A stretch of 64,000 nucleotides of DNA from Coriobacteriia bacterium. Lineage in GTDB: Bacteria > Actinomycetota > Coriobacteriia > Anaerosomatales > Anaerosomataceae. The notes under the pieces are model-generated. The model worked only from the letters and a program-made list of their open reading frames with translations, ran no database searches and was not told the DNA's origin. Of this stretch, positions 42,752 to 46,249 are shown in pieces. The position numbers were made by a program, and so were the translations under genes. The stretch spans positions 62,001 through 126,000 of the forward strand of contig JAUSBK010000013.1 of NCBI GenBank assembly GCA_030652115.1, given 5' to 3'. The stretch's first letter is position 1; the number at the start of each line of letters is the position of its first letter.

Positions 42752-43165
42752 TCAGATCAGCCTGAGCTCCACGGGCGTCTCGATGTGGGCGAACGCCTTG
42801 CCGTCAGCAGAAACCAGCGGGCACCCGAGTTCCTCAGCGAGCCCAAGGAACAGCGCGTCATAGACGCTGATGTTGTGGCGGTATGACAGCAGGGCTGCGG
42901 CGTGCAGGCGCTTTGGAGTGGCCTCGAACAGCTGGATGTGGGGGAGGTCCAGTTGTTCGAGCGCTGTGAGGACGTTCTCCTCGGTGTGCTTCGAGTAGCG
43001 AAGGGCGTTTGCCAGTTCGAGCGTCAGGGATCCCGGCGCGACAAGCGCGACCGCATTCCGTGCGCTGGCTTCGAGCAGCGCGAAGGCCTCGGCCACACCG
43101 CTCTCACCGATCTGGCAGAACCACTTGAACGCGACGCAGCTGTCGACCACAAGGCATGTGGTCAT
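42752..43165 (-). CDS. vapC: PIN-domain toxin, VapC type
   Basis: A 137-residue PIN-domain protein. The Mg2+-binding acids can be placed at Asp8 (VVDSC), Glu in LTLELANAL, Asp in VYDALFLGLAEE and Asp in LVSADGKAF. VapC proteins cut RNA, often initiator tRNA or 23S rRNA, when freed from antitoxin. The fold is complete and no residue is missing. Its ATG overlaps the antitoxin stop (ATGA). Confidence 0.85.
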   Translation of the reverse strand: MTTCLVVDSCVAFKWFCQIGESGVAEAFALLEASARNAVALVAPGSLTLELANALRYSKHTEENVLTALEQLDLPHIQLFEATPKRLHAAALLSYRHNISVYDALFLGLAEELGCPLVSADGKAFAHIETPVELRLI

Positions 43166-43449
43166 CGCAGCATCTCGGGGGGAGTGTCCCGGTCCCTGCG
43201 CAGCTGCTCCATCATCCGCTGTCCGGTACCCGGCGGCGCCTGAGCTCCTATGCGCTTGAAGGACTCGATCGCGCGCTCGATGTCCTTACGCCGGCGTTCC
43301 TCGGCGGACAGGTTCTGGACGTCCACCACGTACCGCGTGCTGGCCTCGGCGATGAACCCGCTTCGGCTCAGGCCGAGCTCGGCCGCGGCCTCGTCGATCT
43401 CGCTCACCAGATGCTCGGGCAGGGAGACGTTCACCTTGTAGACTGCCAC
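43162..43449 (-). CDS. vapB: Ribbon-helix-helix antitoxin of the VapBC pair
   Basis: A 95-residue protein starting at the GTG at 43449, giving MAVYKVNVSLPEHLVSEIDE, a ribbon-helix-helix N-terminus. It continues AAAELGLSRSGFIAEA (helix 2) and ends in an acidic/basic tail that should wrap the toxin. It binds operator DNA and neutralises the PIN toxin. An earlier in-frame ATG near 43518 would lie inside the promoter. The direct repeats at the predicted transcript start fit autoregulation. Confidence 0.8.
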   Translation of the reverse strand: MAVYKVNVSLPEHLVSEIDEAAAELGLSRSGFIAEASTRYVVDVQNLSAEERRRKDIERAIESFKRIGAQAPPGTGQRMMEQLRRDRDTPPEMLR

Positions 43450-43464
43450 TCCGGTCACCTCGCA

Positions 43465-43518
43465 GATACACCAAGTGGATACACCAAGAGTGTACCTACG
43501 TGCTCTGACACGCGTCAA
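43465..43518 (-). promoter_or_regulatory. vapBC promoter with two operator repeats
   Basis: On the minus strand TTGACG (43518-43513), an 18-base spacer and TACACT (43494-43489) form a promoter. Two direct repeats, read as GATACACCAAG on the plus strand (43465-43475 and 43478-43488, period 13), start right after the -10. This is the expected place for repression by the antitoxin. Confidence 0.5.
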
Positions 43519-43527
43519 GCGGCGGTG

Positions 43528-44544
43528 CTACACGAACCAGCCGCCGAGCGCGTTGAACGCGTAGCCGATGATCAGGATGCCGGTCACGACCAGGCCGAAG
43601 AACGTCGCGAGCAGCGGCGTCTTGACGACCTTCTTGAGCATCACGAGCGACGGCAGCGACAGTGCGGTCACGGCCATCATGAACGCGAGCACCGTGCCGA
43701 GGCCGACGCCTTTGCCCACGAGCGCCTCGGCGATCGGCAGCGTGCCGAAGATATCCGCATACATCGGGACGCCGATCAGAGTGGCGAGCACCACCGAGAA
43801 TGGGTTCTTGTCGCCGAGCACCGCCGCCACCCACTCCTCGGGAATCCAGCCGTGGATGACCGCGCCGATGCCTACACCCGCGAGCACGTAGGGCCACACA
43901 CGCTTCACGATCTCGGTCACGGCATCCCAGGCGAACGAGAGTCGGTCGCGCCGGGTCATCTCGGGCAGGTCGATGTCGACCAGGTGCGAACCGTACACGA
44001 ACGGCTCCACGAACCGCTCCATCTTGAGTGCGCTGATGGCCGAGCCGCCAGCCACTGCCAGCACGAGCCCGACGACTACATACGCGCCGGCGATCTTCCA
44101 GTTGAAGATGCTCGCAAGCAGGATCACCGAGGCGAGGTCCACGAGCGGTGAGCTGATGAGGAAGGAGAAGGTCACGCCGAGCGGCAGTCCCGCCGACGTG
44201 AACCCGATGAACAGCGGGATCGAGGAGCACGAGCAAAACGGCGTGATGGTGCCGAGCAGCGCGCCGAGGATCCTGCCGCCGATGCCGTCGAACCGGCCGA
44301 GGATGCGCTTCGTCCGTTCGGGCGGGAAGTAGCTTTGCACGTAGGAGATGACGAAGATCAGCGTCGAGAGCAGGACGAAGATCTTGACCGTGTCGTAGAG
44401 GAAGAACTGGACGCTCGCGCCGAGCCGCTCGTCGAGCGGGAGGTGCAGAACGTTCTCCACGAACGCGCCGACCAGGTCGTTCAGCCAGAGCATCTTGAGG
44501 AGCTGGTCGTTCATCCAGCCGAACACGGTTGCGAGCAGGTCCAT
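43528..44544 (-). CDS. saoE: DUF318-type permease, probable metalloid/organometal efflux (SaoE/ArsP-like)
   Basis: A 338-residue permease of the DUF318/UPF0718 family (YraQ, ArsP). It has about eight membrane helices in two blocks. The signature TPFCSCSSIPLFIGF (Cys104, Cys106) and a second block VPMYADIFGTLPIAEALV are conserved in the family. ArsP members export trivalent organoarsenicals; other members are found beside ArsR and small thioredoxins. Here it is divergent from exactly such genes and from two genes with in-frame UGA. I therefore name it SaoE-like from memory of that family; the substrate is inferred. No Sec codon is present in this gene. Confidence 0.8.
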   Translation of the reverse strand: MDLLATVFGWMNDQLLKMLWLNDLVGAFVENVLHLPLDERLGASVQFFLYDTVKIFVLLSTLIFVISYVQSYFPPERTKRILGRFDGIGGRILGALLGTITPFCSCSSIPLFIGFTSAGLPLGVTFSFLISSPLVDLASVILLASIFNWKIAGAYVVVGLVLAVAGGSAISALKMERFVEPFVYGSHLVDIDLPEMTRRDRLSFAWDAVTEIVKRVWPYVLAGVGIGAVIHGWIPEEWVAAVLGDKNPFSVVLATLIGVPMYADIFGTLPIAEALVGKGVGLGTVLAFMMAVTALSLPSLVMLKKVVKTPLLATFFGLVVTGILIIGYAFNALGGWFV

Positions 44545-45474: not shown

Positions 45475-45717
45475 ATGGAGATCAAGATCCTCGGCACGGG
45501 ATGTGCCAAGTGCAAGCAACTGGAGAAGACCGTGCGCGAGGCCGTAGACGAGATGGGCCTGGACGCCGAGGTCGAGAAGGTCACCGAGTTCTCGGACATC
45601 ATGGCGTACGGCATCATGTCGACCCCCGGGCTCGTGGTGAACGGCGAGGTGCGTCTTGCCGGGCGTCTGCCGAAGCTCGCCGAAGTGAAGTCGATCCTCG
45701 AGCGCGCCGGGGCGTAG
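45475..45717 (+). CDS. Small thioredoxin-like protein (MTH895/ArsE-like)
   Basis: An 80-residue thioredoxin-fold protein starting MEIKILGTGCAKCKQLEK, with the redox pair Cys10-Ala-Lys-Cys13 and the cis-Pro51 in MSTPGLVVNGEV. Proteins of this family are often encoded beside DUF318 permeases and ArsR. They probably reduce or hand over the metal ligand. It follows arsR by 37 bases and ends one base before the next ATG. Confidence 0.9.
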   Translation: MEIKILGTGCAKCKQLEKTVREAVDEMGLDAEVEKVTEFSDIMAYGIMSTPGLVVNGEVRLAGRLPKLAEVKSILERAGA

Positions 45718-45718
45718 C

Positions 45719-46249
45719 ATGTCCACGCTGTCGCCTGAGGAGTCCACTGCGCCGGAGCATGCGATCTCGGTCGAAGACGAGCTGGCTACGAGCGCCGATG
45801 CGCCCCCATCGCCGGGTCGCGGGCGCCTGCTCGTGCTCGTGCTGGCGGTGGCGGTCTTCGCCATCCTGACGGCGATGGTCCTGTCGCGCGGCGGGAGCAC
45901 CTCGGCGCCGCCTGAGGAGCCGTATGCTACCTCGGCCACGCTCGACGCCGCGCTTGCTGCCGGCGAACCGGTCTACGTGCTCATCCATTCGCTGACTTGA
46001 GTCTCCTGCACCGAGCTCGCGGCGGTCGCCGCGGACGTGATGCCGGAGTACGAGGGGCAGGTGGTGTTCGTCGACGCGGTGACCACGGACCCGGCCGCCG
46101 ATGCGGTACTCGACCGCTACCCCACGCAGTACATCCCCACGTCGGTATTCGTCGGTGCGGACGGCGAGGTCACCGAGACGATCATCGGCCCGCTCACCGA
46201 GGCGGAGTTGCGCACACGGCTGGATGGGCTTGCGGCATCCGGGGAGTAG
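45719..46249 (+). CDS. saoT: Membrane-anchored thioredoxin-like selenoprotein with U-x-x-C active site (SaoT-like)
   Basis: A 176-residue frame from ATG 45719 is interrupted only by TGA at 45998-46000, codon 94. Read as selenocysteine, it gives IHSLTUVSCTELAAV, where Sec94 and Cys97 sit exactly where a thioredoxin CxxC belongs. The rest of the fold follows in frame: a strand (QVVFVDAV), cis-Pro140 in YIPTSVFVG and the end of the domain. Residues about 37-56 are a membrane helix, so the active site is outside the cytoplasm. A GGTC-loop hairpin follows 17 bases after the TGA. Both halves have the same codon use and there is no start site for a separate second gene. This is strong evidence for a real selenoprotein. 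Confidence 0.82.
46018..46033 (+). promoter_or_regulatory. SECIS-like hairpin after the UGA of saoT
   Basis: CGCGGC (46018-46023) pairs perfectly with GCCGCG (46028-46033) around GGTC, 17 bases after the UGA. GGUC is close to the apical loop of the Escherichia coli fdhF SECIS (from memory). Confidence 0.6.

Follow-up and report, generated by a model that had tools for sequence, protein, structure and literature searches.

Evidence for selenocysteine in a thioredoxin-like protein of an ArsR/ArsE/ArsP_1 gene cluster in Anaerosomatales

The window analysed here, a 64-kb stretch of DNA from a Coriobacteriia bacterium, contains a reading frame that runs through a TGA codon. This raises two questions: whether the codon ends translation or specifies selenocysteine (Sec), and what the read-through protein would do. 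A window-wide scan for TGA codons whose in-frame flanks are open and of coding-type GC3/GC2 returned only the TGA at 45998-46000. As the first-pass annotation had described, the frame from 45719 to 46249 is open but for this TGA at codon 94; translated with TGA as U, it yields 176 residues with a single U at position 94 (...VYVLIHSLTUVSCTELAAV...). Translation table 11 splits the region into a 93-aa ORF and a 70-aa ORF, the latter starting at 46037. This is the split anticipated under standard gene calling, and also the picture expected were the TGA an ordinary stop, in which case the gene would be a pseudogene or a pair of short ORFs sharing one frame.

45719..46249, + strand: gene for a thioredoxin-like selenoprotein with a predicted membrane anchor, 176 aa, U94-V-S-C97, TAG stop
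45998..46000, + strand: in-frame TGA at codon 94, very probably read as selenocysteine; Cys in 23 homologues, TGA in 7 including the window copy

What settles the meaning of this TGA is the residue that homologues carry at the same position. The read-through protein was searched against 79 genomes, with matches found across the order, and a scan of named genomes placed it in Coriobacteriia, Anaerosomatales and other actinobacterial MAGs and in one member of the Thermoleophilia; 30 homologues, the window's own copy counted among them, were oriented and read. Cys in an unbroken frame was found in 23 of the 30, each encoded as one gene, which both supplies the Cys homologues expected at position 94 and removes the objection that the two halves might be separate genes elsewhere. 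The other seven (7/30) carry TGA: the window, G001 and G003 of the same genus, G012 and G013 of the same family, and G027 and G056 of other families. Because the TGA occupies the identical codon in the two same-genus genomes, a read error at 45998 is ruled out. Positions 94 (C/U) and 97 (C) and the cis-Pro at 140 were invariant in an alignment of 29 sequences. Between the closest TGA forms, pN/pS was 0.16-0.59 before the TGA and 0.28-0.50 after it, indicating that both flanks are under purifying selection. With the Sec column left out of the alignment, the resulting tree required at least two Sec/Cys changes, with the window's lineage separate from the G027/G056 pair; L037 of G013 formed one long branch, and its placement is uncertain.

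The UGA is followed by a hairpin of the bacterial SECIS type, whose 23-nt distance fits known bacterial SECIS rules.

46017..46034, + strand: SECIS apical stem-loop, 7 bp, GGUC loop at 46024-46027, 23 nt after the UGA

In the window, 46017-46023 pairs with 46028-46034 around the GGTC loop. Judged by energy alone, in a single GC-rich sequence, this hairpin is not special: against synonymous-codon nulls, the 60-nt minimum free energy gave z = -2.15 (p = 0.025) and the best single hairpin p = 0.11. Since single-sequence folding energy is weak in GC-rich DNA, we compared Sec and Cys homologues instead, again with a synonymous-codon null. The mean folding z against protein-preserving codon shuffles was -1.70 in the seven TGA forms and -0.11 in the 23 Cys forms, which showed no excess structure. 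All seven TGA forms have a GGUC-loop hairpin at an identical spacing, its loop lying 23 nt past the UGA, with the pattern NNNGGC-GGUC-GCCNNN and one G-U variant, and the hairpin proposed in the first-pass annotation thus recurs with covarying pairs. In the ungapped alignment of the TGA forms, 98% of hairpin cells were paired and two base pairs had changed on both sides, and slid versions of the hairpin gave 31-82% pairing and zero two-sided changes; these are seven related sequences and the shuffles keep that relatedness, so the hairpin evidence, though strong, is not independent of family history. The decoding signals themselves are read directly from the DNA.

Further UGA-containing genes were present in the same genome. 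SelD is encoded there, and its gene likewise contains an in-frame UGA (SKAGUAAKWGPG). TGA within a U-P-S-C motif also occurs in two more thioredoxin genes, one lipoprotein-like and the other a rhodanese-thioredoxin fusion.

G000:C7:76838-77230 (L060): further TGA thioredoxin gene, U-P-S-C
G000:C1:215573-215857 (L061): further TGA thioredoxin gene, U-P-S-C

A search across the genome assembly did not find selA, selB or tRNA-Sec (selC). Matches of 42-48 bits to the tRNA-Sec model in this genome were rejected, the three that were checked being tRNA-Ser by ARAGORN; the same check identified the match in G001 as tRNA-Sec. SelB-like matches of 166-178 bits fell below the cut-off of 242 and were read as EF-Tu-type GTPases. 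The missing genes, like the split ORFs, would suit an ordinary stop codon. However, seven genomes from several families keep the TGA at the same codon, and the remainder of the frame has stayed open under purifying selection, the other homologues are one gene with Cys at this site, the hairpin covaries, and SelD itself requires the same recoding. We therefore consider an ordinary stop highly improbable, and codon 94 of the 45719-46249 frame almost certainly encodes Sec.

The missing machinery could also mean that the protein is a selenoprotein by descent in a strain that truly lost selA-selB-selC, its gene now decaying. The assembly is rated 98% complete and contains no sel cluster, and genes flanking that cluster downstream in relatives are missing as well: a photolyase-like gene and its conserved neighbour, both of which follow selC in G001, were not found in this assembly. 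In G002 and G012, selA-selB-selC directly follows selD; in G001, two VIT/vWA-like paralogues (a name for the repeated gene near selD that we take from reading its sequence) come first, and selA-selB-selC after them. In the window's own genome, contig C3 runs on for about 4 kb beyond selD and then stops within a large VIT/vWA-like gene (L055 12385-14949). Further partial copies of this gene lie on the 4.7-kb contig C12 (L065), and one of them ends at the base homologous to the C3 end, with 81% identity over 2.4 kb. Such paired ends are typical of a repeat break, and the four intact UGA genes, selD among them, show no decay, which makes true loss very unlikely. The contig ends argue strongly that the absence of selA, selB and selC would reflect an assembly break in the repeated gene just downstream of selD, where relatives carry them; the selD side of this gap is the side documented, and the missing piece itself was not seen. 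The expectation of sel genes thus held for selD, and for the other three the contig breaks at the site they occupy in relatives.

We next consider the read-through protein, which is predicted to be anchored in the membrane.

45821..45886, + strand: predicted transmembrane signal anchor, codons 35-56, N-in, C-out by family charge bias

Over the family, the net charge around the anchor was +30 before and -14 after, which suggests the N-in, C-out topology. An AlphaFold2 model based on the family alignment showed a helix at 35-56 followed by a thioredoxin fold, with pLDDT of 95-98 over the domain and residue 94 at the start of helix 95-111. Thioredoxins, that of E. coli among them, were the top PDB structural matches of this model, with TM-scores of about 0.8 on the target, and sequence profiles agreed with the fold. 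The protein has the features of the thioredoxin superfamily, namely the modelled fold, U-x-x-C at a helix start and the invariant P140 opposite. Matches to Pfam fell just short of the cut-offs (PF13899, 24.6 bits against 27; PF00085, 21.6 bits against 23.5), and the protein was above no cut-off among the curated NCBIfam families; other family members matched only general thioredoxin, ResA, StoA and TsoB models by E-value. The selenium form was absent from the protein-family catalogue searched, and our literature search returned no paper joining OPB41 with selenoproteins. Together with the Cys homologues, the modelled fold and the predicted anchor uphold the earlier description of the product as a selenoprotein of thioredoxin fold, tethered to the membrane, whose active site reads U-x-x-C.

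The neighbouring genes, observed directly in the DNA, place this protein in a cluster.

45475..45717, + strand: MTH895/ArsE-family small thioredoxin (redox-active disulfide protein 2), TIGR00412 109.9 bits (cut-off 62), PF13192
45108..45437, + strand: ArsR/SmtB-family regulator, exact start uncertain, NF033788 77.4 bits (cut-off 55), PF01022
44882..45136, + strand: small conserved ORF, 84 aa, without Pfam family, found in many related clusters
43528..44544, - strand: ArsP_1 permease, PF03773, 222.6 bits (cut-off 32.3), divergent from the regulator and redox genes

Only 1 bp separates the ArsE-type gene from the selenoprotein gene downstream of it. Across 33 homologue loci, an ArsE-type gene was near 26 and a permease near 24; permease, ArsE-type gene and ArsR were all present at the seven Sec loci (7/7), and most Cys loci also have the set, in varying gene order. 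CcdA (PF02683) adjoins the thioredoxin gene in two of the Sec genomes, G027 and G056, and at several Cys loci. Pfam confirms it in both of these genomes and in L087, and the others were assigned by sequence likeness; an acr3-type gene then follows in the G027 cluster. In the window's lineage CcdA is not adjacent, and three PF02683 proteins are encoded on other contigs of the genome.

Some further features of these loci were noted. The 84-aa ORF recurs as a conserved gene at 14 related loci in addition to that of the window, often with the motif P-x-V-x-V-x-G-x-V-A-C, and is possibly another component of the cluster. In some relatives (L078, L090 and L091), extra genes lie between permease and thioredoxin. 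One belongs to the carboxymuconolactone-decarboxylase family, an assignment that Pfam confirmed in L078 only, and others resemble cation-efflux and split permease genes by their sequence. On the - strand of the window, 42752-43518 holds a PIN-domain protein (42752-43165) and an antitoxin-like small ORF (43162-43518), which look like a toxin-antitoxin pair.

From this gene context, the selenoprotein is probably a Sec-using variant of an extracytoplasmic thioredoxin belonging to a conserved ArsR/ArsE/ArsP_1 cluster (with CcdA in relatives). We likewise favour a function on the outer side of the membrane, as the thioredoxin belonging to a metal(loid) permease cluster. Several observations count against the metal(loid) reading: some ArsP_1 permeases have other functions, the genome's only full match to an acr3 arsenite pump is on another contig, and the genes beside the selenoprotein gene yielded no arsenic enzyme. 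The protein might instead be a general extracytoplasmic disulfide reductase of the ResA/CcdA type, the metal(loid) efflux cluster being merely co-located. This would accord with the weak matches to ResA/StoA/TrxC-type models, with CcdA adjoining in relatives and with the loci that have no permease nearby (9/33) or no ArsE-type gene nearby (7/33). However, the ArsR/ArsE/ArsP_1 set is found at every Sec locus and most Cys loci in differing gene orders, and the ArsE-type gene is only 1 bp away; we regard the general reductase as possible, with the probability tilted against it.

For the cluster thioredoxin we infer a metalloid role, as we do its substrate, its electron donor and the direction of reduction in the following scheme. 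Sec94 would be inserted at the UGA at 45998, directed by the hairpin just downstream. The ArsR-type regulator would sense a thiophilic metal(loid), derepressing the cluster. A CcdA/DsbD-type protein might then carry electrons from the cytoplasm across the membrane to the Sec94-Cys97 pair, whose selenolate, once the pair is reduced, would reduce disulfides or free thiol-bound metal(loid) at the outer face, so that permease and substrate would stay reduced and exportable. The selenolate could also act directly, the extracytoplasmic seleno-thioredoxin binding or reducing an arsenical or a comparable compound handed over by the ArsP_1 permease. We think this version unlikely; if true, selenium-assisted export of metal(loid)s would have evolved a second time, separately from Sao.

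These results give a little-studied lineage of anaerobes, represented by Coriobacteriia/Anaerosomatales MAGs, a selenoprotein family that had not been catalogued. Because standard gene calling splits the Sec forms, the family is likely missed or mis-annotated where selenium is used. Sec and Cys have been swapped at least twice in one active site, which offers a natural comparison for what selenium adds. Furthermore, the family indicates a candidate redox partner for ArsP_1 permeases.

Among known systems, SaoT of the Sao selenoprotein system, a UxxC protein described by NF040730 in a 2026 review (PMC13188914), was the likeness that the first-pass annotation had proposed. The two share a thioredoxin-like U-x-x-C selenoprotein accompanied by a transporter cluster, and the neighbouring permease weakly resembles SaoE (102 bits, below the cut-off of 325). 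However, the window protein had no match to NF040730 even at E<=1, and the only match to this model in the genome was the neighbouring small ArsE-type thioredoxin (45499-45657), at 17.0 bits against a cut-off of 65. The SaoT-like assignment was therefore not sustained, and the chance that the gene is SaoT itself is very small.

UxxC thioredoxins and thiol:disulfide interchange selenoproteins, listed under PF00085 and PF13098 (PMC13188914), likewise have a thioredoxin fold with Sec first in CxxC; the window protein differs in lying just below the Pfam cut-offs and in forming its own membrane-anchored family tied to one cluster. The neighbouring permease belongs, as does the organoarsenical permease ArsP of Campylobacter jejuni, to PF03773 (ArsP_1), a likeness by family only; an ArsP homologue exports trivalent organoarsenicals (PMC6205960). 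A parallel in gene content is the set of CcdA, thioredoxin and redox-active disulfide protein 2 in ars operons (Castillo & Saier 2010, PMC2963123). A thioredoxin-like protein, MTH895/RADP2 and an ArsR-type regulator are all present at the window locus. CcdA was not found in the operon there and is adjacent in the relatives G056 and G027. In contrast to that set, the window has Sec for the first active-site Cys, an ArsP_1 permease rather than arsC adjoins, and the window's lineage is without an adjacent CcdA. A thioredoxin/ars-type redox set of this kind is thus already known, and the Sec form is new.
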